NCBI GenBank assembly: GCA_000697665.1
Contig: KL197709.1
Location: forward strand, 407,199-471,198
Reading direction: 5' to 3'
DNA from: Jaapia argillacea MUCL 33604
Lineage: Eukaryota > Basidiomycota > Agaricomycetes > Jaapiales > Jaapiaceae
Length of the DNA stretch: 64,000 nucleotides
Shown piece by piece: positions 441 through 48,481 of this stretch. The position numbers and the translations under genes are program-made. The notes under the pieces were generated by a model. The model had not been told where the DNA came from. It searched no databases and saw nothing but the letters and a program-made list of their open reading frames with translations. Each line of letters begins with the position of its first letter. The stretch's first letter is position 1.

Positions 441-1643
441 TTGGTCGAAACCGACGAAGTTCTGCCACCGTTGAGCTCTGGACTAGTCAGTGAGTGTGAA
501 TGGATGGCAGATGTTCTGTACGAGGCATACACTCATCCCAGTAAGTCTTCAAAGTCATCTTATCATGCGTGCTCTCACACAATAGTAGTCCAGGTTCCTT
601 GGAGTGCCCATGAATACTCTTGTGATGTCGGTGTCAAGAATAATGGGATGAATGAACAGAAAGAGGCAAACTTGGACATACTCTTCAAACCTCTGTTCAC
701 CAGAGATCTCCCCATCCAGACCACACCCTGTATCGTTGTGGACCAGAACGGTCTGATCTTATTTTGGCACCTGTAATCCCTGCTCCAAGCAGAGCAACAG
801 GTGAGTTTTGTATTCTTGTGACTGGTATTCAATATTGTCCTGACGATGTCGCTGCAAGCATGACTTGTTCCTTTCAACTCGCCATCTCAATCATCAGCTA
901 GGATTGAGTTTGATCCATTTGAGGAGTACCTCCCATTGCAGTTGGAGACAACAGAAGGAGTACTTCAAGCCCTTATCCGTATGCCCTCACATCTGGCCAG
1001 GTGTCGTGAACCTGAGTCCTGCTTGGTTTGCCCTGGGTCATTCAGTAAGTTGTCCATTCCAAGCAGTTCATCATATGCAAATCAAGCCACACAGACTCTG
1101 GACAGCAAGCTCCATGTCTCTACCGTGATGCAAGATCGGGGCCGACTGGGTGGAATATCAAAGTGGCTTCGGGAGACGTTGGAAACTGCCGCAATCATGA
1201 ATGCTATTCTTCACATCATCCATCCCTCACTGTATTACTATGGACTCCAAGCTCGACAAGCCATATGTGACCAGCAGGGACACGAACAAGCCACCAAATT
1301 GTGGGTTTTGGTATATACAGGGTGTTTGGTGATTGCGAACCGGAAAACTCCCCTCCACAGGGATCCCAATTGCTGGTATGGATGGTATGACCTGCTCGCT
1401 TTGGTGGGGAAATATGATGGTGCAGAGATGGAGGTGCCAGGGGTCAGAATCTGACTGACCGATCCTCCTGGAACGTTGACTGCGATGAGTGGGCATATTC
1501 TGAGACACGGGGTTTCAAAGTGTGTTGGAGAGAGAGTCTGCTATGCGTTCTTCATGTGCCACAGTGTGGGTCAGAGGTTTGATGTGATGATGGATAGCCT
1601 GATGTCCATCCGTCACTACTTGCATTCTAAGGAGGTTGTCTAG
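441..1643 (+). pseudogene. TET/JBP-like 2-oxoglutarate/Fe(II) dioxygenase, module copy 1, 5'-truncated
   Basis: Fragments of a TET/JBP-type oxygenase, the family that oxidises 5-methylcytosine or thymine in DNA. The core covers about 1140-1640. It has the N-terminal helix region (AIMNAILHIIHPSLYYYG), the HxD iron ligand as H-R-D at 1356-1364 after the conserved NRKTP, then GWYDLL, PGTLTAMSGHIL-HGV with the second histidine, and the arginine-bearing RVCYAFFM that would bind 2-oxoglutarate. Homologous exons upstream (about 450-780 and 936-1130) align with 40600-41240 of copy 2. The first exon lacks its start because repeat R1 ends at 440. A TGA at 1452-1454 and frame changes between exons make it a pseudogene, although its catalytic HxD is kept. 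It lies 124 bases upstream of the KDZ gene on the same strand. Family call is firm; exon limits are approximate. Confidence 0.72.
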
Positions 1644-3337
1644 GTAGGAGTGCTTATGGCTGGTCAATGGAGTTCCTGTATGTACAAGTAGGGTTATGGT
1701 TCGGCACAGGCCCACAGAACAGCCGTTCAATTTCTTTGCTGGACATACACTGTCAACATATCAAGTTATGTCCAAATGTCTCAAGTTCGGTGAAGACGTC
1801 CCCCTGAAAATCTACATCCCCGTCAAGAAGAAGGGGAGGACTGTATACAAAAAAATCAATCATCCCGTTGCAGCAGAGACTACTAGCACCCAGACTCCAT
1901 CGAGGTCGCATCATGGAACTCCATCAGAGCAGTGGGACCGAGGGTTCAGCTGACCTGACTTTGGTAACATTAATCTCGACCCTTTGCCTGAGTTGCTGCT
2001 GAAGACCAGGAAGGTGTGTTCATTCCCATGGAATTTTTCTCAACACCTTCACCTGATATTCAATCAAATTCAGAGTCTCAATGATATGATGTGCAAGTGG
2101 AAAGAACATATCCCCAAATTTCTACACACCCTCCTCGAGAGCAAAGGCCCACCCCACCTGAGGGATTGTGCCTTCTGTGAGAAAGAGGGGACATGGAGAT
2201 GCCTTGATTGCTTTGCACATCCTCTGTACTGCATTGGTTGTTGTCAGGAAAAGCATGACCAGACTCCATTTCACTGAGTGGAGCATTGGAAGGGTGACCA
2301 CTTTGCACCTGCATGGCTGTGGCAAAAGTTGGTGTTGGACTCCACCTAGGCCATGGGGGAAAGGTTTGTCCTTCAAATGCGGCCAAGCTTGAGGGATTAG
2401 GATCAGACACAAATGAAGGGAAAGGGAAGGGAGGGGATGATGCTTATGAATCTGATGAGGAGGAGGATGAGGAGGAGTGGGAAACGATCAACGAGGTCAA
2501 CATGGTGTTATCGGACTCCAGTCATAGCAGCCTACCCCCCATGAAGGGGTGCAGGAGGAATATGACCCTTGTCGACCTATTGGGAGCCCATGAACTGGTT
2601 GTTCACTTCTGCAGTTGTGCTGACAAACCGGTGGAGTTCCAGCAGTTGTTGAAAATGAGGATTTATCCTGGCAGTGTGAAGCGTCCGAGGACGGGATTCA
2701 CATTCTGGGTCCTTGACAATTATCACGTCCACAACCTGGAATGTAAAAGCAATGCCTGGGAATATTACCAGACAATTTAAAGGTCAACAAGACTGGCATT
2801 TCCTCATCTTGTCAAGGTCTGTATCATTTGGGAGTTTGCCATCTACACTAATGATCCCTGTCATTGTAGAACTGATACCGAGAGTTTATGCGTATTAATC
2901 GGCAATGGCGACACCTCAAAGCTTGCAAATGGAATAGGTTTGGTCATGGTCCCCACTGGGAGATAAAGCCAGGGGATCTCGCCCTATGGTGTGCGGCATG
3001 CCCCCAACCAGGAATCAACCTTCCTCCACACTGGAAGGATGACAAGAAATGGTGAGAGTTGAGCTATTTCTATAGGCAATTCAACCATCTCACAGAGTGC
3101 AGGAGAGGGTACCTGTATACACAGATGGTGAACCTAGATGGTAACATGAAGGTGGAACAAACAGTATGAAAGTACACAGATGTGCCATTAGCCAATGGAG
3201 GAGGCTTCATGGTTGCCAACAAACCATACCAAGAGTCAATCAGGATATCTGTTGAGGATAAACAGGTGCATCCATCTTCACATTACCTTCCATATTTGTG
3301 GTAACATCACACCGACATCGACCCAATCCCGACACCA

Positions 3338-3410
3338 ATGCCTGAACCGAAACCAACATGGACATGGACACGGACACCAACACCAACACCAACACCACCT
3401 ATAACACCAA
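3338..3410 (+). repeat. Short tandem hexamer tract inside a KDZ intron
   Basis: A run of acatgg/acacgg and accaac hexamers lies within the intron that separates the GGGFMVANKPY exon from the TCHNH exon (about 3267 to 3431, GTGCAT ... CAG). The corresponding intron in copy 2 (from 43619) has no such tract. It reads open in all three frames as His/Gln, Pro/Thr or Asp/Asn repeats, which is an artefact of the repeat and not a gene. Confidence 0.7.
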
Positions 3411-4084
3411 TGCCGACGTCATCAGTGCAGTACTTGTCACAATCACTGGGCGGTTACACAAGGCAACATGGGTTCCAAAAATCTGCAAGTCACCGGTATC
3501 AGTGCGGCAGCATGTGCTAGACACAGTTGCTTTTGCCCTCATTCATGCGTCAACTTTCAAAAGGGAGAGAGGTATATTCCCCATTGTTTCAAAACCATCT
3601 GCTGTGCTGATCTAACTGATCAGACAAATGAACATGGACTATGCCTTTTGTCAAGCCCTCTTGCAAACCATGGGTGGTGTGGATGGGCTGTCAAGGGTAA
3701 TGGGCCTCTATGACATCACCTGCCAGTGGGCAATCAACCTTCTTTGACGAATTGCAAGAAACCGAAAGTATCTACCCCTCACAAAGGGACTTTGGCTTAT
3801 GTTCGGGATCAGTCTGTTTCACATTCATGGCCACCAAGACTTGTGCACCCCTCACTATTCACCAAATTACATGCCAGGGGCCAGTCAAGTTGATGGAGAG
3901 GTCATTGAGACCTTGTGGGCCAATCTAAACTGGATTGCATCCAGCTGCCATGCCATGGGGAACAATCACCAGGCTGAAACTCTGGATGTCCACATGAATG
4001 ACAGTAACTGGAAGAAACTTCTTAATATAGATATGGGCATGGATTGTAGGATGCGTTGGGAACTGAATCATGGCTGTTTCAGTA

Positions 4085-5792
4085 ACGCTCCGGTGATCAC
4101 ATCCGATCCGATCACTGAGACTGCAGAGGGTCTCCCATCCAGTCAGACGATGACCTCCTCCATTGACTTCGGATCCCAACCACAAATCCCAGGAGTGTCA
4201 GAAGTCCTCGCCAATGTGGGGAACCCAATCCGCCTAATAACGGAATCACACCGTTATACTGTTTTGACCGTAACTCCATCGAATCAAGTATGCAGCATCC
4301 CCTCTCTTCAGATTGAGTTGAACTCACCAGTTTCATACAATTTTGGACCCGACATCCCATTCCCTCACTCCTGACAACCACACAGCACTCAGTCCCATCT
4401 CAAACTCGACTCGACTCTCAGTAATTCGCTCCCTCGTCATTCCGAACTCGGAAATATCCAAATGTCCGAAGGCGCGCCCAATTCTCCTAACGATTCGATC
4501 GTATTCCGGATGATGTCGGATTTTCCTATCCACTCCAACTCTGAGATTCCTCCTGAGACCAGATGTCCTCCAATTCGCCTCCACGTCGCTCAGTATCGGG
4601 AATTCCGATGATCTACGATTAGGACTGTATTCGACCCGACGATACGATTACGATGCACCCGATGCAAGCATTCATAGGAGTCCGGAACATCGGAATTTGA
4701 CTCAAGACTAGTTGTTCACCATCTCGCCTCCACGTCATTCAGTATCGGGAATTCCGATTTATCTCGATGATCCAAGTCCCCAATACACTGCCACAACACG
4801 TTCCAATGATCCAATACTCCGGGATTTACAAAACACTTACATCACTCTCCACACCCATCGCTTATCGACTTCTCCACCTCATGTCTGTGCTCTTGGACTG
4901 AGTCCTCAATCAGGAAGATACTTGCTTTAGGTTTCCGAGATTAACTACTATAGATACTGCTCATCCCGAGGCTTCTGTGTACTTCCTCTTTCGGTCTGAT
5001 ACACCTCCAATAGGACTTCACTCGCTTCCGAGGAATACTCAGTATGTTTTACCTCAGTTACTTGACTTCTGACCTGTCCCTCTCTTTTGTTGTGCACTCT
5101 CTCACTTGAATCACACTCATGTTGTCCTGAATTCACTATTCCCTTTATCCTTTCCTATTCCGTAGCTACCTCATGTACTTGGGTATAAAAACCTGTCTGT
5201 AGCTACTTTCCCAATAACAATCTTTCATGATCTCTCTCGTCCTGAGCTGTCTTGGGCTTTGGACTTCTTTACCTTTGGGATTTCTGATCTTTCTTACTTT
5301 CAACTTGTGTTGATGTTTCCCGACCTTCACGTTCTATCTCGATGCTTTCTTTTCGATTCATTCCAATCTTATTTCGTTCTGATTAGTGTTTTCCTTTCGT
5401 TTCTATCCTGACATATTAGTTTCAGTCTGTTTCGATTTGATTTCTTCGTTTTCCTATTGTTTTAGTTTGTTTTTGTCACACATCTTACAGTTAGTTTCGT
5501 CATATTGTATCCTTAGATTTCCGAGTAGTCTGACTCGATTCCCGACGTTCCGGACACCTGCACAAGTACTTGCCATAGCACACCCTCCCCTTGGGATTAC
5601 TCCTCCACTATCACTGTGTTGAGTTGAGTTTCCTTTTGTGTTCCGATTACTGGACACATCAATTCCGGACCTTACAAAGTCTGTCCTACACATTCCCGCA
5701 TCCCAAAACACTGATCCCTCCCATTCTTCGATTTCCATTGAAGACGAACAACTACCCCTCACTCAGAACATACGAACCCTGAGTACCCCACA
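4085..5792 (+). mobile_element. LTR-alpha copy 1 with a short internal tail, inserted in KDZ copy 1
   Basis: An LTR of the same family as 16335-18014 and 51381-53191. The LTR proper runs from TGTGGGGAAC at 4215 to a CCCCACA end at 5792 and carries a TATA-like ggtataaaaacc near 5183, so its sense strand is plus. The preceding 4085-4214 segment is shared with 16203-16334 and is the outer end of the element's internal region next to its 3' LTR. No coding part is left: a fossil remnant, not a whole element. I see no matching target duplication, and KDZ sequence is missing at the junction. Confidence 0.75.
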
Positions 5793-6703
5793 TCGCCCTC
5801 AGCAACAAGTCTTACATCTTCCAAAAATATGTTCGCCACTATAAAAGCCAGTCAAAGAAGACTTGGACCTGGGACAAGATCACTCAACAGGAGGCCCTCG
5901 TCCAGAAGCATGCTCGGATTTATTCCCAGTGTAGGAAGGTGATGGTACGGCTGGGGGCAGATCCCGATCTCTTGAAGAAATATCGCATTTTGGACAAAAA
6001 AGACTGTCAGGTGAACACAGGGATTGTGGACGATCCCAAACAGCGCAAAGTGCGGAATGCAACTTTGCCATGGATCTGGGGTATGGGCAGCTCTGAGGAA
6101 GAAGGGAGACATCTGAAGGATTGTAAGTGTACTCCCGTCAATTCCAAATTTTTGTTCACAGCATTCCATCAGTCCTTAGAGTGCATTGGCTGAGAGCGAA
6201 GGCCATGCGGGATCGGTGGCAAGAAGAACTCACCATTGTTATCCATGAGATGGAATGGGTCCCAAATTACTTCAATCATAGGGTGGAAGAATGCCAAGCT
6301 CGTGCGGAGGCAAGTCTGAACAACTTGGGTCATTGGTGTTACGCAAATTGACAAAGGGAAATGTGGAAGAGGTTTGCCACCACAGCTTCCACTGAATTTG
6401 TGAATATATTCATCCTTCATCCCCCTCCGGATATCAACTCTTTTCATGTGAACCAACCTGAAGAGGATCTTGGTGACCAGGATTCCACTGACTCATCAGG
6501 CGAAAGCCACTCGGGATTGGGATCAGACTCTGAAGATAGTTAGTTCTTCCTGTAACATGTTGATCTTTAGAGTTTGAATATACATTGGTGACACCATTGG
6601 TGTGGCTCTTATTGGAGAATGAAATAACTTTGTGCTTGAGGCATATGGCAGTTGCTCAACCGCATCTTTTGCCCTACTCCCCCACTCTTTGCCACTCTGC
6701 AGC

Positions 6704-7728
6704 ATGTTGCATTATGACCCTCTCAATCGTCCTCAGCAACGATGTAACAAAGAGCTTCATATTTGCTTGACTCGCTTGCATTCTCTTTCCTCATCTCCAG
6801 AAGAAACGTGCTCTCTTGCAATTCACTACAGCACCCATGTTTCCCAATTTTTTGACACTCTGGCAATCAGACTGCAGCATGCAGTGGCTGCATATGTGGC
6901 TGCATATCCCAGCGGTATATTACCACCCGAAGTTGCTCGCTCCTGGATCCTCGGCATGAGAGCAGAATTGGTGAGTTACACTCTTCTCGGTGTTGGTATT
7001 GCTAACACTGAATCCATCTCAAGACTCTGGGAAACATTGTTTGGCGAGAAGCAGTGAATGCCAACCTCGTCGAAAAGCCTATCCATCCCATATTCTATCA
7101 CTTGTTTTCCTACTTCTTCCCAGATGTGCGATGGGGCCAACTGTCAACAATCCAGAGCGATTGGAAGCCGCTCTATGAGCACATCACCTCCTTCCACCTG
7201 TGGTGTCACTTGGAGACAAATCCATTCCTCGATCTTCCACAATGGTATGAAGCTCCCAATCTCAATGCTGGCGTTGAATCTTTTCTCAATTGGGTTGGTT
7301 TAACGGTGAGCTATTTCACTTTTCACTCTTGTCATGACCTAATTTGTACCAGGAGAGGTCAGTTCAATGGATGGAAATCACCAGTTTCCCAGATCTCAAC
7401 AGATCCTCTGCATCATATACATTTCCTTTCAAGAAGACACTCCTCGGCGTAGATACAGGCATTGATGACTTGCAATCCAAACCAGTATGAGCCCTCTCCC
7501 ATTCTACTAATAGTGATGTTGACTTCGTCCTGGAAGAATCCAGACCATTCCTGCCTTGATCGCGTTATGGAAGAAGTTCGCCAACTCATTCCCCTGCATT
7601 TGGTCCCGACACCTTCCGACGACAAGCTGAAGCCACTGATTCCCTCAGGAGACTCGGATTTGCAGCGGATTGGTGACGTTTCCCGACCCCACATCTTCGC
7701 ACATGACCAATCCCTCTCCTGGGGTTGA
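6704..7728 (+). pseudogene. U1 gene, module copy 1 (unknown family)
   Basis: Not a family I recognise. The ATG at 6704 lies 160 bases after the KDZ stop, the same spacing as in copy 2. Exon 1 (6704-6970) ends in WILGMRAEL. A 53-base GT-AG intron follows. Exon 2 (7024-7305) reads TLGNIVWREAVNANLVEK and then a Phe/Tyr-rich HPIFYHLFSYFFP stretch. Exon 3 (7353 to about 7481) aligns with the VQWMEI...FPD block of the copy 2 counterpart. The last exon is about 7511-7728. Exon order and intron places match 46041-47230 and the paralogous U2 genes. The Phe-rich block is too short and too broken by charges to be a clear membrane anchor. A small shift near 7560 in exon 4 suggests it is decayed. The function is unknown; its repeated position after KDZ suggests it travels with the transposon. 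Confidence 0.6.
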
Positions 7729-7818
7729 CTTGCCAAATTAGCTAATTGTCCTGTAACTCTGCCAAAACGGCTCCTCCACACAGCGAACACATGTTTTGTC
7801 CTCTCTCCTAACAACCTC

Positions 7819-8947
7819 ATGGATGCTTCACGAGCCAGCCAAGTGGTGACTGCTGAGGAATGACTCCTGGCTTTATTGAATGTGCTGGTAAATGATGACC
7901 ACGCCTGCATCACCTCGGAAACCGCTCCATCAATGCTGGAACAATACTTCAACCGCCTCACAATTCGCCTCATCTATGCTCTTGGCTCTTACATTTCCAC
8001 ATATCCAAAGGGCTGCTCTGACATACCAATGAGGGATGGGTGGGGGCTCGGTATGCGCACTGAATTGGTAAGCACCTGTAGTCCATAACTTGTTTGGTTA
8101 CTAATGATCTCCCCCCTGCAGGCAGTCGGGAATGCAATTTGGTGCGAGGGTATCAAGGCTGGGCGGTGAAGCATGAACTATTGCCATGCCTATCTTTGAT
8201 CTACACCTTCTTCTATCCTCCCATCGGGATTTCTGGGACTAGAGATACTCCCCTGGATTGGACTGCATTGTTTGGCTCTCTGAGTTTTTCTGGGGTTGAC
8301 GAGGCTGGTGGCAAGCCTTTCAGGGATCAGAGAGAGTGGTATCTGGAGGATGATGTCCCTGCTGGTGCAAAGGCCTTTGTCAGTGATCTCACCTTGCGGG
8401 GAGGTCCATACCTCACATCAGAGTCACGTTGCTTACCTTTATCATCAGACAGGGCTTACATTTTACACCAAGTCCAAGTTGATCTTAGAGCCGCCAGTCA
8501 GCGCTTCTTTCATTGTGAGTCCATTTTACGCCGTCTTGCAATCATTCTGACCGTTTATGTCAATGCAATATCAGTCTCTGGAACATACACGTCTTGATGA
8601 CATTGTCTCAAGTGCTCATACATTGTTCCCATGGGGATCCAAGCTTTCCTCCTCCCATGTGGTTTCTACAAGTCCCAAGTGTCCCTCAGAGCTCCTGGCC
8701 TGACTTGCAAAGTTACCACAGAACCCAGGTGCTGTGAGACCTCCTGATGCGTCAACAGGATCACACACGTCTCCTTGTTGCCTGGTATCTTCAATCACTT
8801 GGCACTTTGGAGTTTCTGTATCAAGCCATGCAATGCCACCGATCTCTGCTTGGGATGCCAACAATCCCAACACTTGCACCAGTATCTGACCCAGAGGCAA
8901 TGCCAAGGCTGGTGGGAGGTGGAACTCGTGATATCCCTGCCGAGTGA
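7819..8947 (+). pseudogene. U2 gene, module copy 1 (paralogue of U1)
   Basis: Paralogue of U1, starting 90 bases after it. Exon 1 (7819-8067) holds FNRLTIRLIYALGSYISTYPKG and ends in GWGLGMRTEL, the same junction as U1. The intron is 8068-8121 (GTAAGC...CTGCAG). Exon 2 (8122-8514) begins AVGNAIWCEG, equal to TLGN-VWGE in the other copies, followed by HELLPCLSLIYTFFYPP. The last exon is about 8575-8947. There is a TGA at 7861-7863 in exon 1 (between TAEE and LLALLN), where CGA would fit, and a frame change in exon 2 after IKAG. No known domain is visible. The shared exon design with U1 implies an old tandem duplication that predates the split of the two modules. Confidence 0.55.
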
Positions 8948-8952
8948 GAATT

Positions 8953-8962
8953 TTTATATAAG
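8953..8962 (+). promoter_or_regulatory. TATA-like box upstream of the two-exon gene
   Basis: The sequence ttttatataagc lies about 120 bases before the ATG at 9081, with a mixed C/A-rich leader (ccaagtcacacatccaac...cctaaccaca) leading to the start. Position and context suit a fungal core promoter. There is no direct evidence of use. Confidence 0.4.
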
Positions 8963-9080
8963 CAGTATTAGATCGTCATGTATTAAGTTTTGGCCAAATT
9001 CATCAATGCTTCGCACCCTGCCTAAGCAGCCAATCCTAACCCCAAGTCACACATCCAACATTATTCTCATCCTAACCACA

Positions 9081-9652
9081 ATGTCTTCTCTCATATTTGA
9101 CACACAAGCCATGTTAATCGCTGAGTACACAGGCCTTGATTCACTAGGACAAGCCTTGCTGCTCAAATCTCCGACTCTCTGTACATTGGAAGAATATGGA
9201 GATTGGCTCTCCGAAGCTGTTGACTTGCAGGTAACTATTATCTTCACCCCATATCGCTTTGGTGCTGACCATAGACTATGCAGTTCAATAGAGCATATTG
9301 TGAAATGCGGTTGGGAAGGTTAATTGGGTCCTCAGTTGAACCAAGTCAATTCAACTGGGATAGGTTGGGCGATCTATTCAAAATCAACAGATGGGTGATG
9401 GGGGAGCTGGAATATCTTACAGGTGATGATGAAGAGGGAGCCGAGAATATTGGCGAAGATAAAGAGCCTGCTTCCTGTTGGTTGGCATGGACAGTTAGAC
9501 TGGGACTCTTTACCTTCCCATACTGTGCATGTGCACCTGAAATGACAGTGTTGACATCATTTCGTATCCTGAACACTGACCGTAACACATTTCAATGCAA
9601 ACAGCTAGACCGATGCCATGACGCACAAATGCATCATCCCGATTTGGGCTAG
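9081..9652 (+). CDS. Small two-exon hypothetical protein, apparently intact
   Basis: The ATG at 9081 follows a C/A-rich leader ending in accacaatg. Exon 1 (9081-9230, 50 codons) ends in DLQ at a phase-0 GTAACT donor. The intron is 9231-9283 (ends TATGCAG). Exon 2 (9284-9652) continues in frame to TAG, giving 173 residues. The product has an N-terminal region with Leu-rich stretches (GLDSLGQALLLKSP, LEEYGDWLSEAVDLQ), then FNRAYCEMRLGRLIG, an acidic linker (GDDEEGAENIGEDKE) and a Cys/Trp-containing tail (CWLAWTVRLGLF, YCACAPE). I recognise no domain. It is the only gene in the window with no internal stop in the chosen model. It follows U2 copy 1 by about 130 bases, but no homologue follows U2 in copy 2, so it need not belong to the module. 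The tail after the acidic linker could be intronic or a chance extension. Confidence 0.5.
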
Positions 9653-9689
9653 GTTAGGGTTATGCTAATCAATCCCCGGTTGCTCCAAT

Positions 9690-10880
9690 AGTGCAGGAAA
9701 CTATCCCAGGAAGAGCCCTTGGGTTGCCAGACAGCTTCACTAGGTCTCTATGTCGTCCCAATGGCGCCTTATGGCTCCCCAACACGCAGTTAATCCCTAT
9801 CCGCTTTGTCTATGTGTACCCTATTGGACCCCATAACACCTAATGTACCTAACCCTAGTCTTGGAAATCACCCCAACCCCATCCTGATGGTTGTCTGAGG
9901 TCACTCAACAGATCACCTCATAAGGTCTCAAGGTCGTCCCAATGGCTTTTTATGACCCATGATATTGCACCCCAATGACACCCATAATACTTAATCCCAT
10001 ACATGGAAACCACCCTGAGACCATCCTGATGGGTGCTTGAGGTAGCCGAACAGATCACCTCATAATGTTCCAATGATGTCCTGATGGCTCCTTATGACAC
10101 CCCGACCCACAGTTATCTGTCCCTATTACACCCCAATACACAGCTAACACATATCCACTATGCTCATGTGTACTCTACTGCCACACCCAATAGGAGGCTT
10201 GGAAATTACCCTAAGACCATACCAATGGATGCCATCCTGATGAGTGCCTGATGTCACCTAACAGATGATCCTATACCGTCCCTATGTCCTCCTGATGGCT
10301 GTCTATGATAGCCCAACCTCCGGTTATCTCATATCCAACATGTCTATGTGTAGCATGTTGCACCCCGATGACACCCAGAGCACCTGACCCCACACTCGGA
10401 AATCACTCTGACACCATCCTGATAGGTGCCTGAGGTCGCCCAACAGATGATCCCATGCTGTCCCTATGTTGTCCCGATGGCTCCCTATGACACCCCAACC
10501 TCCATTTGTCTCATATCCAACATGTCTATGTGTAGCATGTTGCACCCCGATGACACCCAGAGCACCTGACCCCACACTTGGAAATCACTCTGACACCATC
10601 CCAATAGGTGCCTGAGGTCACCCAACAGATGTCCCATGCTGTCCCTATGTCGTCCTGATGGCTCCCTATGACACCCCAACCTCCAATTATCTCATATCCA
10701 ACATGTCTATGTGTACTGTATTGCACCCCGATGACACCCAGAGTACCTCACCCTACACTTGGAAATCACCCCAACACAATCCTGAGGTTGCCCAACAGAT
10801 CACCCCATATCCCACTTGCCTAAATGTACCATAGTCCACCCCAATTACATAGTCTCTGACCCCACACTTGGGATTCACCA
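9690..10880. repeat. Degenerate satellite-like tandem array, ~180-bp unit
   Basis: At least six diverged units share the anchor aacagat followed by a C-rich block, at 9907, 10049, 10260, 10442, 10624 and 10794. The central spacing is about 182 bases; the outer units are shorter or longer. Each unit carries the order: tgaggtc.cccaacagat, gtccctatg.cgtcc, gatggctccctatgac, accccaacctcc, tctcatatccaacatgtctatgtgtag, ttgcaccccgatgacaccc, cccacacttggaaatcac. The apparent reading frames across it only reflect the repetition. No gene seen. Confidence 0.75.
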
Positions 10881-10919
10881 CAATGCCATCCCAATGGGTG
10901 CCTAGAGTCACTCATCATA

Positions 10920-12190: not shown

Positions 12191-12367
12191 CTGGCTGCTG
12201 GTTAGCCAAATGGTTCCTGCAGAATGTTTGGTGGCACCGCTGTGCCAGTTATGGCTTATATAGAACCAGAGGGCTTTGTGGGGTCAACAAGAGCTCAGTC
12301 ATGCAATGTGATCCTTCAGCAAGTCACAGTTGAATGGTGAAAAATAGGTTTCAGAGTGGTACTGGGT

Positions 12368-30110: not shown

Positions 30111-30128
30111 GTGAAAAGCTTGTCCAAG

Positions 30129-30561: not shown

Positions 30562-30565
30562 ACAT

Positions 30566-32754: not shown

Positions 32755-32821
32755 TTTGATAGTGCTGAGAGGACTGGGGGTGCTTTTTAGGCGAGAGTGG
32801 TTGTTTCAGCTGCTGGAGTAT

Positions 32822-38694: not shown

Positions 38695-39285
38695 TCAATC
38701 TTGGTGAGTGTGCGAAGGTGGGGGAACTAATTCGATGTGTTGTTGGCAGAGGAGTTCTACTTCTTCTGTTTGTTGGCACACTCGTTTGATGATGTTATTG
38801 ATTTGTGCATGGAGGGCGATCAGGTCGTTGGAAACGACATTGAGTTGGTGATAGAGCTGGTCAAGTTCTTGGGTGATGAGTAGAAATGCACTTAGGAAGG
38901 CGTCGATGTGGATCCTTACTTCTGCCAGTTTTGCAATCCGCCTGGTGGCCTGAAGTACACTTATGATACACACGAGTTTGGGGTGTTTTCTGGCTCGTTG
39001 TTTCTTAGGGGACAGCGTGTAGTACTGAGTGGCGACGGGGGATAATGCTGTGGGGGTTTCTAGTTGTGGTCTGCCGATGGGGTAAAGGGTGTGTGTGGCT
39101 CGTCGTTTGATGAATACAAGCTGTTTATTGTCAGAGCGTTGTACTAGAAAGAGAGGGTGGATGTCGATAGTATCGATGATACTGGGGTGGGGTTCATTGG
39201 TTATAACAACACCATAGGGTTCCAGGGTAGGGGAGGTCACAGATCCTGACTGCGTCAGTGTCATAGGGTGAGTAGGGTATAGCAA
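38695..39285 (-). other. Open frame upstream of gag in chromovirus B
   Basis: A 196-codon frame begins 12 bases inside the 5' LTR. Its middle is basic (SPKKQRARKHPK) and its second half is helical with heptad-like Leu/Ile spacing (ELDQLYHQLNVVSNDLIALH, AQINNIIKRVCQQTEEVELL), suggesting a coiled coil. The degraded counterpart in A shows it is a conserved family feature. It may be the start of a long gag polyprotein or a separate small product. More Pro-rich frames (to 38363) connect it toward gag. Confidence 0.5.
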
Positions 39286-39296
39286 GCTTGTCCAAG

Positions 39297-39734
39297 TGTG
39301 ATGAGCGCTTTAGCAACTAGTACTCAGGCTATGACTTGGAGACTGTAGAGGATGACAAATGAGAGCGAACCAGTTGAAGGGTACGGCTAACGAGCTGTAT
39401 TATTCAAGTGGACAAGCTTAAGGAATACAGGAAAGTGAGGGCACCTTATATACTAGGGCCAGAAAGGGAGAACATAGTAGAATGGTATAGAAGGCACTAA
39501 GCATAGCGTCCAAGGAACCCAAGAGAATGTGATAGAAAGGTATAGAGGAACGTGGAACATCCAGAGAATCGGTAACCAGCTGATTGAGGTATAGAACGAG
39601 AAGTCGAGTTAATAATAGTACAGCAAGATATAAATAGAACGAGCCTGAGAGAAGACACGATAAGACAAGATAAGATATCCAAGATAAGATAAGATAACAA
39701 AAACTGAAATGGGTATACAAACAAAGTCGTAACA
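39297..39734 (-). repeat. 5' LTR of chromovirus B
   Basis: 438 bases, partner of 30566-30999. Flanked on the right by the target duplication aacat (39735-39739), which overlaps A's displaced duplication acatc (39736-39740). Confidence 0.88.
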
Positions 39735-39740
39735 AACATC

Positions 39741-40360
39741 AAGGAGGCTTCAATCACTTGCCATACGCACAATGGGGGCAAGGCATATGTTGGTACAAAT
39801 TTACTTGAAGCCTGGATCATAAGTAGTTGAAGCTCATTGATGAGCACAAAATGCATGGCACCATTTTCTATCATTCCACTGTAGATAATTTTGGCATAGA
39901 ATGACTACAACATGGGGCAAGCAAGGAGGGTGGAACTCACAATCAAATGTGGACAATCCGGCGCGCAATAAGTGTGAAAAAGGGTGGAACTCGTGATCAA
40001 TGGTGGACACTTCATTGCACGGTGTAGCTGGGGGTCTCAAACTGAGGCCTCCATGCCTGGTGTTATCTACAAATCATTCCTTATTTTTGTGCAATGATGC
40101 AGTAATGTTGCTGCATTGGGTTAGGCATGTGGACGAGAATCAAAGCCAGAGTTGACCTTCATTGAGGGAATGGCCAAATTTGCACAAACAAATGTGGACA
40201 GGCCGGCACAAACACAGTCCACTACTGTCTAGTTACATTCAGGTCGCTTCTGCCTTGACACAAAAGCACATCTGAATTAAAGTGTCACAAATATTCCCGG
40301 TTTCTGACTTGTTGGATATGAAGTTCAGATCGATGATGAATCGCTAGGAAACTCGATCTC
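39741..40360. other. Right host flank of the retroelement pair; no gene seen
   Basis: Host sequence that was continuous with 22406 before the insertions. A short imperfect direct repeat (gggtggaactc...gatcaa..tggaca) occurs near 39928 and 39982. No coding signal beyond short frames. It forms the distal upstream region of TET/JBP copy 2. Confidence 0.45.
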
Positions 40361-40550
40361 AAGTCACCATTGAATCTTCCAACCAGCTCTCAATACTTCC
40401 CGCGTTGCCAAAACCTATTTTGTCTCTTGTTGAACCTTTTGCTCTGCAAACCTTTTGAGTCACCATCGAATCTTCCAACCTGCTCTCAATACTTCCTGCA
40501 TCGCCAAAACCTATTTTGTCTCTTATTGAACCTTTTGCTCTATTACATCC
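40361..40550 (+). repeat. 96-bp tandem duplication just upstream of the TET/JBP start
   Basis: The block gtcaccat.gaatcttccaacc.gctctcaatacttcc...ccaaaacctattttgtctctt.ttgaaccttttgctct begins at 40363 and recurs at 40459, period 96, ending a few bases before the ATG at 40551. It is pyrimidine-rich on the plus strand, as fungal leaders are. It duplicates the likely leader or core promoter of the gene. Confidence 0.7.
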
Positions 40551-41833
40551 ATGACTCCGCCCAACCTCGATCATTTTCACTCTGCAATGGCATTTGAAGC
40601 TCAGGTCGCTGAATATCTTTACTGTCTTTTCTTGTGCAAGCTTGAGCACGAATCGTCGCTGTATCCTGTGTTACTGGCACTACCGGCCTCGATCATTGGT
40701 GAATGCCAAAGGATGGCCAGCGTCATCTACGAGGTGTTCACTCACCCTAGTGAGTTTCCTTTCAGAGGTGTTGTATAATACCTGATCCTCTCAAGTTTCC
40801 CTTCCTTGGAGTGGCCACGAGTATGCGATGGATCTCGGCAGGCAGACTGGGATGAATCGCAAGAAAGAAGAGGAGATGGAAGCTCTCTTTCCCCCATTGT
40901 TCACCAGCGATCTGCCCATATGCAAGGTCCCTTTTGTGATTGTCGACTCCACCAGCATGGTGTTGATGTGGCAGCTTCCCTCTCTCCTCTGCTGGTCATG
41001 GCAGGTATGTTTCCCCTCTCACTGATTGATTTTGGCGCATCTCACAGCAAAAAGATGGCTATGTTTCACACTGCTTCAAGCCTCAATCCACTGATAAGGA
41101 CTTCTGGAAAACCTCAGGTCCCAGGGAAGTGTGGAACCTGGTGAAATGACCCAGCATACTTCAAAGCTCCTGCTGGTCAGTACGAGGTCACGCCTGGTGT
41201 TCTCAACTTTAGCCTGGCATGGTTTCAACTTGGTCATCAGGTATGTTTTGAAGCATTCCACACCTACGTTGTCTGGTGATGAGTTGAGTTGCTAAGGGTC
41301 CAGTGAGTTCGCTCTGTGACTCGGCGACTTTGAACGCAAAGGCCCGCCTTTTAGGCGCTGATCAATGGTTGAATGACATGATCCATTCAACAGCCATCGT
41401 GAATGCAATACTGAGGGTCATTCAGCCTCGACTGTATATGTATGGTCGCAGGGGTCAAGAAGCCTTGTTGGCAGATGGGATGGATATGAATTGGTTGTCA
41501 ATCTACATGGGCACCGCAGTCATATCAAACAGGGAAACACCTGTGCATTGAGATACTCAATGCTGGGTGGGTTGGTATGATTTGCTGGTTTCTGCAGGAC
41601 CCTATAGGTATGTGGAGATGGTCTTGCCGAGCATAGGCATCAGGACGCCGGATTTGCCAGGAACTCTATCCGCTCTCAGTGGTCATATTCTGCCCCATGG
41701 GGTGTCGGAAGCAGACAGAGAGAGAGTTTGCTATGCATTTTTCATGGGTCACAAGGTCTCTCAGAGGTTAGGGTTATGTCTTGCCGAACCCATGATGGCA
41801 GACCATTACCTCTGCGCCAGGAGGAGCATTTAG
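40551..41833 (+). pseudogene. TET/JBP-like 2-oxoglutarate/Fe(II) dioxygenase, module copy 2
   Basis: ATG at 40551 (MTPPNLDHFHSAMAFEAQ...). Exon 1 ends at a GTGAGT donor at 40750. The next exon (about 40800-41005) encodes SGHEYAMDLGRQ...FVIVDSTSMVLMWQLP, then a TPGVLNFSLAWFQLGHQ block about 41190-41240. The oxygenase core is 41303-41833: NAILRVIQPRLYMYG, VISNRETPVH, GWYDLLVSAG, PGTLSALSGHILPHGV and RVCYAFFMGHKVSQRLGL. It has the double-stranded beta-helix order with both iron histidines and the terminal arginine. The HxD motif is interrupted: CAT (41546-41548), TGA, GAT. Copy 1 has AGG at the middle position, so CGA was likely here before a C-to-T change. The family oxidises modified bases in DNA and is known to ride with KDZ transposons in basidiomycetes. 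The KDZ gene starts 80 bases downstream on the same strand. Confidence 0.75.
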
Positions 41834-41913
41834 TCTACACATAGTCAACTGGCTTACAATAAAACTTTCGTGAACCTCTTTCTTCTCTGGCTATTCTGAA
41901 CTTTGCCCTCCCT

Positions 41914-44900
41914 ATGGCTTGTCTAAAGCGTATCAAGTTCGCTGGTGAGGCTCCTTTGAAGAGGATCACACAAGAAAAGACGGCAAAGGGCTCCAGAAGG
42001 TGGAAAACGGTGTTGGTGCAGGGAACTGAAGATGGTGGGATGAGTAGCCCTAGTAAGTCAGGATGGGGCACCCCTTCACAGGACTGGCAATCAAGAGAAG
42101 ACTTCTTGCAAAATGCTGCAGCAGAGATGGATCCTATGGCTTCCTTGTTGTCAAGCACACAAAAGGTACACTGTTGCATCTGATGTCTGACATGACCCAT
42201 GATGATGTTTTGACAGACCCCAAATGACATGATGAGGGAATGGAAGGAGAAGGCCCCCATCTTCCTCCATACTCTGCTGTCTGGTGGAGCACGGCCTTCA
42301 GATGGCTGCTGCCATCGCTGTAGTCAGCCTGGATTGTCGCAATGTTTGCAATGCTTCGGCCATCTGCTGTTCTGCACAGAGTGCTGCAGGGATGCTCACA
42401 TGTCGCATCCCTTCCATTGGGTGGAGATTTGGAAGGATGATCACTTCTCTACCAGTTGGCTTTGGCAGGTTGGGGTTTGCATTCATCTTGGACATGGAGG
42501 GGGACAATGTCCCGGAAACACCTATCTGCGAACTACTACAACCTCAGGGGACCAGGTTGGCCTTCAATTGCCAGAGTTTCTTCTGTACCCCGGCGATGTG
42601 TAGGGGGATGGCCACACACCCAATGAGTTGGAACCAAATCTCAATGTTGATCCTTTTTCCATTCCATCCTCCAGTCCACCCTTCAATCCTCCCAGTCCAC
42701 CAGCACCATCCGGCATCACCACTTCTTGCTGAGCAACAGTAGAAGATGTGCCTGATGAGGATGATCCATTCCTGGAGGATGAGGAGCGAGATGGAGATGA
42801 GCATGAGATTTGGGAGGATGAGGAGGATGATGTGGAGGAGTGAAAGTCCGTGACAGAACTCCACCATTTACTTGCCGATGCAGAACTTACCTCCCCACCG
42901 AGCACCAAAGGAAATGGGAGGAATTTTACGATAGTGGATGTGTCTGGCATTCACGAGGTTGTTGTTCATTTTTGCAATTGTGGGAAATGCCAGCTGGAGT
43001 TTCTCCAGCTTTTGGACTTGTTGATCTATCCTGGCAGCATCAAGTGCCCAAGGATGGGCTTTACTTTTCAGGTTCTCGACAACTTTCACATTCATAACCT
43101 GGAATGTAAAACGAATGCCTGGGAGTACTATCAAACCATTCAGCAGGCAACCAAGCCATGGTTTCCACATTTGGCTCAAGTATGTGGATCTCAACTGAGT
43201 GGAGAACTGAATGTGACTGTTTTTCAGGATCGGTACAGAGAATTCATGTGTGTGGTTTGCCAGTGGAGATATCTCAAGGTCATGAAATGGCATAGTTTTG
43301 GCCATGGCCTGGCGAGAGTCATTGGACCTGGCGATCTCGTGCTCTGGTGTGCTGCCTGCCTTCAACCAGGAATCAACTTACCTAGCGATTGGAAGGAGGA
43401 TCAAAAAAGGTGCGTGAGGTTCATGTGTGGTGACTTTCTACTAAATGTACTTGGGTGTAGTTATCTCTACACTCGAATCATCAACTTGGATGGAAATATG
43501 AAAGCTGAGCAGATGGTCCAAAAACCCATTGATGTTCCCCTCGCGGAGGGAGGGGGTTTTATGGTGGGGGATCAGGATTACAAAGCCTCTATCAAGGCTT
43601 CCATCGACGATCCGCTGGTATGTACAACCTCACCCCTGTGGTTCAATCTCCTGATGTCAGTCCAGGGGGGAACATGTCACAATCATCAGGCTGTAACTCA
43701 AGGGAACATGGGATTGAAGAATCTTCAGGTCACCAGCATTGGGGCTGCTGCTTGTGGGCGACATGGGGCTTTCTGCCCTCATTCGGTTGTAAACTTTCAA
43801 AAAGGTGAAAGGTTTGTGTTTCTCCACTGCTCCATGCCCTGGTCGCTGAGAAACTGTCATCATAGACAATGAACATGGACTATGCATTCACTCAATCCCT
43901 CCTCCATACCATGGGAGGGGCTGATGCCTTGTGCCTGGTGATGTCTCTCTACAACATCAACTGCCAGTTTGCCATCAACCTTCTCAGAAGGATTGCCCAG
44001 AACCAACAATATTTACCCCTTGCAAAAGGCATCACCATCCACCATGGCATTGGATTGTTCCATGTGCACAGTCATCAAGATTTGTGCACCCCGAGGTACT
44101 TGCCGAACTACATTCCTGGTGCTGGTCAAGTGGATGGCGAGGTTATTGAAACCCTTTGGTCAAATCTCAACTGGATTACATCTAGCTGTCGAGCGATGTG
44201 GAACAATCATCGGGCAGAAACCTTTGACATTCACATGAACAAAAACATCCGGAAGAAAATGTTGAATATCAGTGAGTGCCATTTCCGTAGTTGGAGGATG
44301 GGAGGCTGACAACCTCCACCCAGTCCTTTCGTTGCTCAAAAAGTATGTGAAAGCTCTGGACGGAGTCACCATGAGCACTGCAGGCTTCTGTGACATCAGC
44401 CGAGCATCAACCTGCAAGGAAATGAAGACCTGGAGTGAAGATGAATCAAACACCTAGGAGTCTCACAGCTTTAACATTGCGGCAATGGACATTTACACTC
44501 CCACTGTGAAAGAGGGTGAGCCCGCTATTTGTTGATTCATGCTAGTACTCCACTAACAATAAATCCAGCTCCAGCTCACCAAAGAGGAAGGAATGGACTC
44601 AACACCCATTCAAGGTTCTGCGAGTTGGTTGGCCAGCAGAATACGCATTCAGGAGGTGCAGTGAGTGAAGATTCCCAGTCCCCTCATTTGGCAGCTGATA
44701 TTTGCCAAAGGTTAGAGCTTGCAGCAGAGGTGAGAAGGCTGGGTCAGCGACCAACAGTCGCCTAAATGAATACTATTGAAGACCGTTGTTGCTGACTTCG
44801 TGACTGAATTTCAACCTTCAATGACACCTCACCGAAGTATCTTGGTCAGATCGCTGACATCCTAGGCAACAATCCAGACGCTGGAATTGATTTTGGAACT

Positions 44901-45880
44901 CAATTTGACAACCTTGACCTCAATGGGGAGATCAACAAACTGGACATTGACCTTGACAGATACTGTGTGGATTCCTCCAAAACACCTGCCAAGAAATTAC
45001 CCATCTCACTTCCTTCGACATTGGCTCAGAAGCCTGCACTGGTAGCGCCCTGAAAAAGCTTGCCAAACAAGAACTTTGCCTGAGGAAAGGACAGGCCAAC
45101 AACACTCTACAGCAGATCCAGATTACACTCAGCAATAAGTCTTACATCTTTCACAAGTATGTTCAGCATTACAAAAGCCAATCGAAGAAAACTCGCACTT
45201 GGGGATGTATTTCTCAACAGGATGACATTGTGCAAAAGCATGCACGAATTTATGCACAATGTCGAAAAGCCATGGTTCGGCTAGGAGTGTCTTCTCACAC
45301 CCTCGAAAAATATCAGATCCTTGAGAAGAGCGACTGCAGGGTGAACACAGGGATAATCGACGACCCAAGCAAAAGAGGAAATCGCAACAAGGTTTTGCCT
45401 TGGATTTGGGGCCTCGGAGATGGTCTGAATAAGGGAAAACATCTGACAGACTGTGAGTCCCGCCAACAACTAGATCACTGTGAGACCCACTGGACTGACA
45501 CTGCACAAGTCGTCAGGCTTCATTGGCTGCGTGAAAAGGCCATGAGAGATCACTGGCAGGAAGATCTCACATTCATCATCAATGAGATGGATTGGGTCTG
45601 CAATTACTTCAATTATCATGGTGACTCTTGGAGAAGGAGGGCAGAGCATCATTCCCCCACACCTGGCCACGAAGCATACACTGCTTGTCAATGTCACATG
45701 TGGTATTATTTTGCTCGTACTGCACATACTCAGTTCGAAGAGGCCAAGCTCATGCACCTGCACCCAATTTTAGCCGATTTCCAGGTCAACAGATCAACAA
45801 AGGATTTTCAGGATCTGCTCAACTCAGACTCTGAGGATCAGCAATCACAGTCCTCCAGTGGTGCTGAGGATGATGTATAG
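41914..45880 (+). pseudogene. KDZ transposase with CxC2 cluster, module copy 2
   Basis: ATG at 41914 (MACLKRIKFAGEAPLKRIT...). The CxC2 zinc cluster is at about 42290-42420 (CCHRCSQPGLSQCLQCFGH...CTECCRDAH...HWVE), then a low-complexity acidic stretch. Next is the FCNCGKCQLEFLQLL...GFTFQVLDNFH region (42950-43110), WRYLKVMKW and CAACLQPGINLP (43260-43380), NLDGNMKAEQ (43485), and the RNase H-like DDE core from 43670: TCHNHQAV, GAAACGRHGAFCPHS, NMDYAF, FHVHSHQDLC, AGQVDGEVIETLW. The helical C-terminus (45040-45880) has a WGLGDG linker, RLHWLREKAMRDHW and an acidic end. The position that is Asp in copy 1 (LYDITC) is Asn here (LYNINC, 43953-43955). Internal stops include TAG 42601, TGA 42730, TGA 42841 and TAG 44456. 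This was a cut-and-paste DNA transposase, now inactive. Confidence 0.85.
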
Positions 45881-46040
45881 ATAGATAGATACAATGATGA
45901 CTTGTTCAATTGTTGAAATGATCCTTCCTTGTGTTGATCACCTGGCAATCACTCCAGCTTTTCAAATCCCAGCAAGGCAATTTTGCATTGCTCGCCAGCA
46001 GTCGCTTTGCTCTCCAGCAGATTTTCCACACCTTGGCATA

Positions 46041-47230
46041 ATGGATCTCAGACTCGCAAACCCAACTACTCACTCAGCAAAGATGCGACCCCTGTGCATA
46101 AAGATTCTGGAGAAGATCATTCCCCCTACAGAAGGTGATCATCTGAAGACCTTGTATGGACTATTCCAAATCCCCAGGTTTTTCAACTCCCTCACCAATC
46201 AATTGCATAGAGCAATCCAAACCTATATTCTCCTCCATCTGAATGGTTGTTTGGACGAGGAGATCAGGGCTTGCTGGGTCTTGGGTATGCAATTGGAGTT
46301 GGTATGTCTTCCCCATGTCCTTCCTTTCCATGGATTTCGGTGTTGACATTCCCAGACTTTGGGAAATGTGGTTTGGGGTACGGCCTGTCAAGGTGGCTTG
46401 CCACAAAGTAAACCTTCACCAGTGTTTGATCAAGTCTACGCTTTCTTTTTCTCCTATGACACGCCAAGCGACCTCGATGTCCCAATCAGCTGGGAATCAA
46501 TCTCATCCGTTCTTTCAATTGAATCGTTCACCCGTCCAGATTCTATTCAATATCTCCAACTGCTGTTTTGGTGGGATCAACCCAATCTCAGGGACAGTGT
46601 CTACGAGCTGATGATGGCTACAGGCATGTCTGTGAGTAATTCCTTGTCCCCTGACAATATTCTCATTTCCTGACTTATTTCTAGGAGGTTTCAATGGATT
46701 GGGTCATTGCTGGGAGGGTTCCTGACTTTCTCTGGTGGAATGGTTCTCACCCGCTTTTGGGTCAAAATGCCTTTCCATGGGAATTGGAACTCATGGGATT
46801 TGATGTTGAGTCCCAGTCAGACTATGTGAGTTGCAAAATTCATTCATCACAATCATCCATTTAATGTCAATACTAGTTGGCAGAGCAGCTTCAATACGAC
46901 TCGATCTTGGCGAGAGCTTACAGAAGGTTGGGCCTCCCACCCTCATCCGCCACACACTTGCGTCCCTCTCAGCTCCTCTCCCGTGCCTCAGCCATCTCCA
47001 TTCCTCCCATTTCTCCCAAGATGACAGATGGCACCACAACAAATGCTCTCTGCAAGATCATGAAGCTCCAGCTAGAAAACATTGCCTGACTCGTGGATAC
47101 TTACAAGGACCTCATCAAGTCAATCGATGCATTGGATGGAGAATGGCAAGCTCCCATCAAAGCATCTGAGAAGTATCAATCAGGAGCTGAGATCTTTTTC
47201 TATGAGAACTTTGCCTGGACGACGATTTAG
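46041..47230 (+). pseudogene. U1 gene, module copy 2: four-exon unknown family, one TGA
   Basis: The best-preserved member of the unknown family. ATG 46041, 160 bases after the KDZ stop. Exons 46041-46301, 46356-46631, 46685-46825 and 46877-47230 join at phase-0 GT-AG introns of 51-54 bases, giving 343 codons. Exon 1: FFNSLTNQLHRAIQTYI, then ACWVLGMQLEL. Exon 2: TLGNVVWGTA, FDQVYAFFFSYDTPSD. Exon 3: MDWVIAGRVPDFLWW, NAFPWELELMGFD. Exon 4: LQYDSILARAYRRLGLP, then a Ser/Pro linker and a helical C-terminus (IMKLQLENIA-LVDTYKDLIKSID) that looks coiled. The only interruption is TGA at 47087-47089, between Ala and Leu, where CGA would fit. No known domain or catalytic motif. Position and exon match with copy 1 and with U2 suggest module cargo. 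It might be an accessory transposition factor, but nothing in the sequence proves that. Confidence 0.65.
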
Positions 47231-47240
47231 AGTAGTCTTC

Positions 47241-48481
47241 ATGTATTTTATTATTACCATCGGCGAATCAATCCCATTGCAAAAGAATTGTCCAACAATA
47301 ATCTTTTATTCACCATATCGCTGGGAATCACCGGACATCATTGGCGAAACCCTTTGCAATGTTGAGACTACCTCTTCGCATCGCTTGTGTTTGCCATCTT
47401 CAAGAACTCGTCACCAGCCGGACAAGCAATTGATCAACCTGCAAAATGCATGGAACTACATCCAAGATTTTTTCATTGCCCTTGCTGGACGGCTTCACGC
47501 TGCCCTACAGGCCTATGTTGAGAAACATCCATTTGGATGTCAGGATGTGGAGGAGTGCCTACTGTGGATCAAGGGAATATGCATTGAACTGGTGAGTTTG
47601 CATCCACAGCCATAAATGTCCTCTTGGTGTTAAGTAATGTCCAGACGCTTGGCAACATCTTGTGGGGAGAGGCTGTGATGTCTGGCCTCGCCGAGTACAA
47701 ACTCCATCCCGTTTTCTCCAACCTCTACTCTTTCTTTTTCTCGTACTTCACCAGGAATGATCCAACAAAGATTCCGGCAAATTGGACTCATGTTCATGGC
47801 TATTTCCGTGACACAACGTTCCCCAGTGTTTCCAGCAATGCCTTTACACACTGGCCGGCTGGAGAGTTGTGAGGTCACAGTGAGTTCCTTTTCCTGCACT
47901 GGCTTCCTTCTGTTTGTTCTGATTCGGTTCCTCTTAGGATATATCACTTCAGTGGGTCATTGAAACCCGTGTTCCTGAGTTCATTCGCCACTCTGACAAC
48001 ATGCCGCTGCAATATATATACCCTTATGAGAGACCTCTGCTTGGGCTCCCAGCGGTTGATTATATTTCAAACTATCTTCTGGTGAGCACCTCATTTTCGC
48101 TGAGATCTTTGTAGTGCTTTGTTGATACATCTTCAGCTGCTGAGACATCTCAGCTGGGACTCCCTCATTGCCAATGTCACCACATTATTACCCCACACCA
48201 GCACCCATTTGTGGCATGGAGGGGTGTCCATCACCCCCAGGCAACCCAGTCATGTAATGCGTTCAATCAAGGTGGCGTTGGAGCCTATGGCTGGTCCACG
48301 CATGGTCAACAGACCAATCACCAACTCCATTCGCTGAATTGTCTCCATTCATCAGGTCCAACTCCAGGTTTTGCAGGCCAAGTATACAGAAACTCTCAGA
48401 GCCTTGCAAAAGGCTTACAATGATCTCATGGCCCATCAAGCATCTTATGAGATGATAATTCCCTGGGCTCCTCATTCGTAG
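47241..48481 (+). pseudogene. U2 gene, module copy 2: paralogue of U1
   Basis: Begins 10 bases after the U1 stop; the ATG at 47241 is the most upstream in frame and is uncertain. Exon 1 (to 47591) has FFIALAGRLHAALQAYVEKHPFG and ends WIKGICIEL. Exon 2 (from 47645): TLGNILWGEAVMSGL, KLHPVFSNLYSFFFSYFTRND. Exon 3 (47938-48081): DISLQWVIETRVPEFIRHSD. Exon 4 (48137-48481) runs from LLRHLSWDSLIANV to a helical tail VQLQVLQAKYTETLRALQ, likely a coiled coil, ending in TAG. Exons 3 and 4 join in phase 0; the end of exon 2 is not clean. There is one TGA at 48335-48337, after SIR, where CGA would fit. The four-exon order is the same as U1, so the pair arose by tandem duplication. Function unknown. Confidence 0.6.

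Follow-up and report, generated by a model that had tools for sequence, protein, structure and literature searches.

Two gene modules on a Jaapia argillacea contig are the coding cores of adjacent, decayed TET+ Kyakuja transposons with further co-travelling genes

Why should the same four genes stand twice, in one order and on one strand, within 64,000 bases of a fungal genome? The question is raised by a stretch of Jaapia argillacea MUCL 33604 (C1:407199-471198, contig KL197709.1; hereafter the window, whose own positions are given without a contig name). An original prediction made from its sequence placed two modules at 441-8947 and 40551-48481, each with a TET/JBP oxygenase, a CxC2-KDZ transposase and two further genes, U1 and U2. 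In 2014, Iyer et al. (PNAS) reportedly described TET/JBP genes beside CxC-KDZ genes in basidiomycetes, with lineage-specific expansion. We show here that each module forms the coding core of a decayed TET+ Kyakuja element, a DNA transposon of the KDZ superfamily, and that the two elements lie side by side. The elements containing the first and second module are called W1 and W2, and other loci are named by contig (C12, C56, C23, etc.). All gene counts and linkage tests were made within this one genome (43.7 Mb, 95 contigs).

Colinearity was evaluated using stop-to-stop translations of positions 1-10500 and 39001-50500. These aligned colinearly on the plus strand through TET, CxC2-KDZ, U1 and U2, confirming the repeated gene order, and the gap of 160 bases between the KDZ stop and the U1 ATG was also found in both W1 and W2. 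U1 and U2 proved paralogous to each other by alignment. Over pooled aligned pieces, amino-acid identity between W1 and W2 was 44% for TET (159/358), 60% for KDZ (440/732), 26% for U1 (48/183) and 36% for U2 (29/81), making U the least conserved gene between the two copies.

The limits predicted for the modules were too narrow, since the actual unit extends far beyond both, and the second module is not a lone diverged duplicate, since W2 has three relatives in the same genome (C12, C56 and C23), whose DNA identity to it is 81-94% in pieces exceeding 700 bases, shorter ones falling as low as 78%. In C56 and C23, homology starts at a single point, CAGCCCATTCAGCC, which corresponds to position 11472 in W2, and the 3' end of C12, C56 and C23 is GAACCATGTG. 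The C23 copy measures 21,550 bp and has ATCTTAA on both flanks (7/7), and the C56 copy is flanked by GACGATG and GATGATG (6/7). In C56, the genes and domains X, TET, CxC2, KDZ, U1 and U2 (X being a further gene described below) are all inside one pair of ends, and therefore moved as one unit. C12 has no 5' end and W2 no 3' end, with W2 homology to the three relatives stopping at 49784; breaks at 15641 and 49784 were considered as element ends and rejected, because they reflect where C12 is truncated on its 5' side and W2 on its 3' side. W2 accordingly occupies 11472-49784 (plus strand), 38,313 bp with nested inserts and ∼19.3 kb without them.

The 3' part of W1 occupies 1-11277 (plus strand), and its 3' terminus, AAATAGCTAAACAGTGTG at 11260-11277, is followed by TTATTTG at 11278-11284 and lies 194 bases before the start of W2. 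From this end, the 5' end was predicted to read TTATTTG followed by CA. The pattern TTATTTGCAGC had 16 matches in the genome, as did its backwards control (16), and one match, upstream on the same contig and strand (C1:365447), runs on as CCATTCAGCC, the 14-base end of W2. TTATTTG directly followed by CAGCCCATTCAGCC at this place is the 5' end of W1 (C1:365454, left of the window) with its target duplication (7/7). W1 thus spans ∼53 kb with inserts, of which the two ends and part of the middle were read, the middle containing more than 1 kb of N, and its gene X lies between the two ends at C1:381120.

The suggested joint movement or retention of the four genes is borne out by these ends and 7-bp target duplications, which enclose all four. 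Inverted repeats and target duplications had been proposed as marks of such a unit; duplications were present in the three copies testable and tested (C23, W1 and C56), but no long terminal inverted repeats were seen by eye. Judged by eye, the ends share an inverted imperfect core, CA-N5-TTCAGC (TTTAGC at the W1 3' end), and they are of the CA..TG type, reading CAGCCC...CATGTG in C56 and C23 and CAGCCC...AGTGTG in W1. When the 3' motif was allowed at most three mismatches, the stretches searched gave seven matches (W1, C12, C56, C23, C32, C76 and C1:3348k), each oriented as expected, and none in the 2.5 kb searched at C9; five-mismatch matches arise at random and were not used, including one at C3. 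Nor do the ends close before U1, as U2 and the array after it are followed by the 3' terminus in W1, C12, C56, C23, C32 and C76. At C13:1053205, past the TET-KDZ locus of C13 in the downstream direction, CAGCCCATTCAGCCAAATTA resembles the 5' end with 2 mismatches.

Assembled from several damaged copies, the element layout is 5' end CAGCCCATTCAGCC, X (minus strand), TET, CxC2-KDZ, U1, U2, tandem array and 3' end RAACNNTGTG, with a single U in some families, a small gene V in some, and an array that is family-specific. The recurrent module is X-TET-KDZ-U(-U), and the element type is a large, probably cut-and-paste mobile element carrying a TET oxygenase (an enzyme of the DNA-demethylation type), a transposase and further co-travelling gene families. 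Assignment to Kyakuja rests on the KDZ transposase domain and CxC cluster (PF18803 and PF18758, above cut-off), the CA..TG ends and the 7-bp target duplication. TET+ Kyakuja are already known from Agaricomycotina, and resemble the elements described here in combining KDZ and TET/JBP in one element, with CA..TG ends and 7-bp duplications; they are described as lacking terminal inverted repeats (Kojima, 2025; PMC12730594). The parts of that paper covered mention neither U, X or V genes nor a tandem array following U2, and state no rule on how further genes are ordered in Kyakuja; the inverted core shared by both ends also sets the present elements apart. The mobile KDZ1-KDZ3 elements of Cryptococcus neoformans (9-11 kb) likewise encode a CxC-KDZ transposase, but differ in having terminal inverted repeats of 139-241 bp, 4-8 bp target duplications and CxC1, and no TET is mentioned in the passages covered (PMC12810828). 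The gene set that recurs here is larger than the literature passages report. Passages on KDZ, Kyakuja and CxC2 do not describe the U and X genes (PMC12810828, PMC7641404, PMC8889193), which does not prove them undescribed.

Both window copies are damaged. The TET/JBP genes lie at 441-2000 in W1 and 40551-42100 in W2 (both plus strand, limits approximate, starts as originally predicted), with PF12851 matches at C1:408371-408754 (50.7 bits) and C1:448561-448944, respectively, each containing one in-frame TGA. The facial triad of W1 is seen as HRD (HxD at 1356) and GHILRHG at 1491, and W2 has H-stop-D and GHILPHG, the stop between H and D breaking the metal-binding motif. AG-type TET/JBP proteins carry Asp where CcTET has Asp337 and Gly or Ser where it has Gly331; a count from the motif His suggests Asp and Cys, respectively, at these places in both copies. 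The CxC2-KDZ gene of W1 is at 2071-6543 (plus strand; PF18803, PF18758 at C1:410820-411206; stop TAG at 6541-6543), aligns to that of W2, and is interrupted by a repeat insertion at ∼4080-5783; that of W2 is at 42214-45880 (plus strand; PF18803 2.7e-24, PF18758 1.3e-27; stop at 45878-45880). When window pieces were searched against Pfam, both copies gave CxC2, W2 pieces gave the KDZ core, and the W1 piece gave Tet_JBP below cut-off; in the genome search, Tet_JBP and KDZ were above cut-off at both W1 and W2. Among in-frame stops in Tet_JBP matches, 10/13 were TGA, and CpG was depleted across the window (observed/expected 0.27-0.58 in seven parts) with an excess of TpG/CpA, as expected from deamination of methylated CpG.

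To place the window copies in the genome, rows of matches to Tet_JBP (25), KDZ (71), CxC2 (36) and U were joined when neighbors were within 9 kb, giving 50 clusters; genome profile searches score best candidates only, so that census counts are lower bounds. The clusters comprised TET+KDZ+U (9), TET+KDZ (9), KDZ+U (2), U alone (3), KDZ/CxC2 alone (20) and TET alone (7), and one of the last (C28:446k) has a CxC2-KDZ 9.6 kb downstream, just past the 9-kb limit. The order TET-CxC2-KDZ, on one strand, was found in 18/18 clusters containing both TET and KDZ. Rather than lying mostly away from KDZ genes, U was joined to a KDZ/CxC2 match, at steps of at most 9 kb, in 11 of the 14 first-census U clusters, C18, C49 and C85 being the three not joined. 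A random-placement estimate for this linkage, with 40 KDZ loci assumed, is 8e-18, which is not a true probability because the copies are related. U lies downstream of KDZ on the same strand in 10 of the 11 KDZ+U clusters. In the exception, C78:31k, U and X are oriented as they would be in an element on the minus strand, and TET-KDZ is on the plus strand; from these coordinates we infer an inversion of the TET-KDZ block. Tandem U pairs were found in 11/14 clusters (W1, W2, C12, C56, C23, C32, C76, C77, C78, C9 and C18) and a single U in C1:3406k, C49 and C85.

A U profile built from 16 U genes was then run on stretches 3' of KDZ in the nine TET+KDZ loci lacking a census U. One U each was detected in C78:66k, C34, C64, C1:3348k, C80 and C3 (E 9.4e-8 to 1.3e-4), and controls consisting of reversed sequences and a Gypsy stretch gave best E values of 0.69 with this profile and 0.37 with an extended one. 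In contrast, the profile found no U in 5 kb at each of six loci with KDZ but no TET, a selection from the 20 KDZ-only clusters (best E 2.1, 0.83 with the extended profile). U is therefore counted in 15/18 TET+KDZ loci (9 by genome search and 6 by profile), or 15/17 without C39, which was left out because 2,967 of the 6,400 bases examined there are N, and the difference between 15/17 and 0/6 is significant by Fisher test (p = 2.8e-4). Thus, U tracks TET-bearing KDZ elements, a linkage with TET that is confounded with transposase clade. U1/U2 had been put forward as a fixed extra component following KDZ elements; U itself is such a component, but six loci have one diverged U instead of the pair, and the association applies to TET-bearing KDZ rather than to KDZ in general.

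Gene X was missing from the predicted gene set, which was otherwise correct for TET, KDZ, U1 and U2, because it is cut off by Gypsy insertions in W2 and lies outside the window in W1. It was traced from a DNA stretch 5' of TET matching other families at 69-71%. Its best conserved exon (W2, 21559-21834, minus strand, divergent from TET) finds 16 loci genome-wide (17 rows, two of which fall in a single locus). Each locus neighbors such an element, X being present in 15 of the 18 TET+KDZ clusters and at C23. Further W2 exons, guessed by eye, run on the minus strand from ∼22.2 k to 19.3 k. X and TET (KDZ for C23) occupy opposite strands in 15/16 loci, the exception being the inverted case C78:39k. 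The distance of X to the TET-KDZ block is 1.4-2.1 kb in 12 loci, 3.6 kb in C23 (measured to CxC2), 14.0 kb in C3, 27.0 kb in W1, and 19.5 kb in W2, where nested Gypsy elements are included. The genome search did not find X at C13, C34:140k or C66, nor at the 20 KDZ-only clusters.

V is a small two-exon gene family with an acidic tail, present at seven loci (W1, C66, C1:3353k, C80, C9, C85 and C30:292k). In W1, it lies at 9080-9500 (plus strand), supported by genome matches and by tblastn relatives 3' of KDZ, on the opposite strand, at C66 and C1:3348k, and relatives stand in tandem on the element's minus strand in C66 and C1:3353k. Pieces of X and V have no accepted Pfam family, the best X match (TPR_Slam, 4.3e-4) being below its cut-off.

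How U evolves was evaluated within the W2 family. U1 of W1 lies at 6704-7450 (plus strand; exons 1-2 recognized from alignment to W2 and other U genes) and its U2, damaged and of uncertain end, was aligned to 7897-8950 (plus strand). W2 U1 was located at 46041-47085 (plus strand; exons ∼46041-46301, 46353-46630, 46685-46825 and 46876-47085) by genome search and U alignment, and W2 U2, with uncertain exon limits, was aligned to 47400-48480 (plus strand). The ratio of nonsynonymous to synonymous substitution (dN/dS) for W2 against C12, C56 and C23 was 0.26-0.45 for U1 and 0.31-0.36 for U2, with a synonymous excess at p ≤ 0.0073 in each of the six comparisons; TET and KDZ pieces in the same comparisons gave 0.11-0.61. 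Seven open frames 5' of TET (11.5-18.7 k), considered as genes, were rejected (dN/dS 0.37-2.9 against sister copies, most with stops there). The U tree, built without W1 U2 (too short) and with single-U rows on long branches, places the U1 genes of C32/C77 beside those of C76/C78 (94/90) and separates them from the U2 genes of C32/C77/C18; the duplication into U1 and U2 therefore seems older than these families. W1 and W2 take no firm place in this tree, and their U pairs may stem from separate tandem duplications. ColabFold models of window exons of U1 were all-helical, with four rows each (exon 1, predicted local distance difference test score [pLDDT] 74.9; exon 2, pLDDT 73.8).

Tandem arrays follow U2 in five families. 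Tandem Repeats Finder (TRF) detected a 182-bp unit repeated three times in W1 (10232-10785, between U2 and the 3' end) and a 103-bp unit repeated seven times in W2 (48912-49633; 6, 8.7 and 9 copies in relatives). The other arrays are 85 bp × 4.2 in C32, 84-87 bp in several rows in C76, and 184 bp × 4 in C9. Units differ between families, except that W1 and C9 look alike by eye. In 14 other stretches downstream of KDZ (six TET-less, eight TET+), 12 had none or minor repeats.

Nested inserts account for much of the length of W2. Homology to C12 is unbroken to 22406 and restarts at 39736, and the intervening 22407-39735 contains Gypsy long terminal repeat (LTR) retrotransposons (minus-strand pol frames seen by eye; LTR-like family D2), probably two elements, with a 438-bp LTR-like tandem at 30129-30999. 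A 1.68-kb repeat at 16335-18016 is missing at the matching place in C12, C23 and C56. Copies of this 1.6-1.7 kb repeat are found in the W1 KDZ gene (4080-5783), in the 5' half of W2, and at 51379-52945; the copy in W1 carries 133 bases (4080-4212) matching W2 16202-16334, next to W2's own insert. Positions 67-366, inside W1, and 55703-56002, beyond the W2 end, are 92% alike over 300 bases. A minisatellite of ∼120-130 bp (TTTACCATTTTAGGAAGGTCATGTGACCTGCC) occupies 50545-51180 and 59311-61838, partly in inverted arms (59709-60041 against 61323-61655, 95%), and similar units occur near C12:30.4k.

Taken whole, the explanation we consider probable is a multi-gene TET+ Kyakuja element. The mechanism by which its parts would work together, combining KDZ/CxC2 mobility, TET oxidation and U as end- or array-binding helpers, is proposed tentatively, as less likely than not. 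KDZ/CxC2 would cut and paste the element, TET would oxidize 5-methylcytosine on it, and the U proteins, diverging fast and largely helical, would serve as helpers that attach to the ends or tandem array of their own element and bring TET or the transposase to these sites; the U1/U2 pair may act as a heteromer. Our working hypothesis would thus make U an end-binding or targeting partner of TET. VANDAL transposons are plant elements of the MuDR type and are not known to carry TET. U would play the part that VANC has in them, with the oxidase supplied by the same element. VANC, a transposon-coded anti-silencing protein, targets rapidly diverging tandem repeats in noncoding parts of VANDAL, and its action was shown by experiment (PMC5735166, PMC10398659), whereas U is known from sequence, and the two systems are alike in anatomy only.

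Several observations weigh against a targeting role for U. C66 has TET and KDZ but no U by profile downstream of KDZ, and the C13 match is marginal (E 0.051, 0.0047 with the extended profile). U matched no accepted family in Pfam or NCBIfam and no sequence in PDB, and Foldseek of the U1 exon 2 model alone against PDB returned nothing below E 2.7; none of these searches revealed a DNA-binding domain. The low identity of U may reflect weak constraint rather than co-evolving specificity. No array was seen in the short U2 tails of C18, C77 and C78 (0.4-1.8 kb examined), and in the eight scanned TET+KDZ loci that lack a U pair (C13, C34, C78:66k, C80, C3, C66, C1:3348k and C64), TRF found nothing or minor short repeats 3' of KDZ; a single U therefore comes without an array. 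Arrays are present downstream of C22 and C24, two of the six TET-less KDZ loci, and therefore prove nothing alone.

Another possible role, which we rate about level with the helper mechanism, is that U proteins are transposition accessories. In En/Spm, TnpA is a second element protein that acts at subterminal repeats and affects methylation; it is likened to U by role only, not by sequence. On this model, U would attach to subterminal repeats and help build the KDZ transpososome, and its link to TET would be by descent only, both genes happening to occur in the TET+ Kyakuja clade. The position of U directly 3' of KDZ, with the same spacing in both window copies, and the subterminal arrays in five families are consistent with this, and the six TET-less loci tested resemble a separate branch, their CxC2 match extending over positions 1 to 106 or 107 (of 107), which is why TET linkage and clade are confounded. 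However, C66 and perhaps C13 suggest that KDZ may not need U, and C9 has KDZ and U with no TET match, which may be decay. We find it doubtful that U, X and V are simply cargo, whether captured host genes or hitch-hikers with no role in mobility or anti-silencing. None has a known domain, X and U differ greatly between families, and C18, C49 and C85 have U with no KDZ within 9 kb, but cargo would not readily explain why order, strand and spacing are mostly preserved across very diverged families, or why U is under purifying selection within the W2 family. That the blocks are a segmentally duplicated host gene cluster rather than a transposon is highly improbable: the window copies do stand in a long repeat-rich stretch, but this reading is already contradicted by clean termini shared at unrelated flanks, 7-bp duplications, a transposase inside, and many loci on separate contigs.

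If the helper mechanism is extended so that TET+ Kyakuja become a self-contained epigenetic escape, with U1/U2 reading a private array and ends and aiming TET, and X and CxC2-KDZ as the other fixed parts, the proposal becomes unlikely as a whole; were it true, each family would demethylate itself only. At issue is what fungal transposons gain from carrying TET, and how a single element could profit from an oxidase that is not targeted. In this genome, U follows TET-bearing KDZ, in many families beside the element's own repeat array, so that self-targeted DNA oxidation can be tested on it directly. The element is defined by its ends, target duplication and gene order, and annotation may otherwise split it into TET, KDZ and orphan genes.

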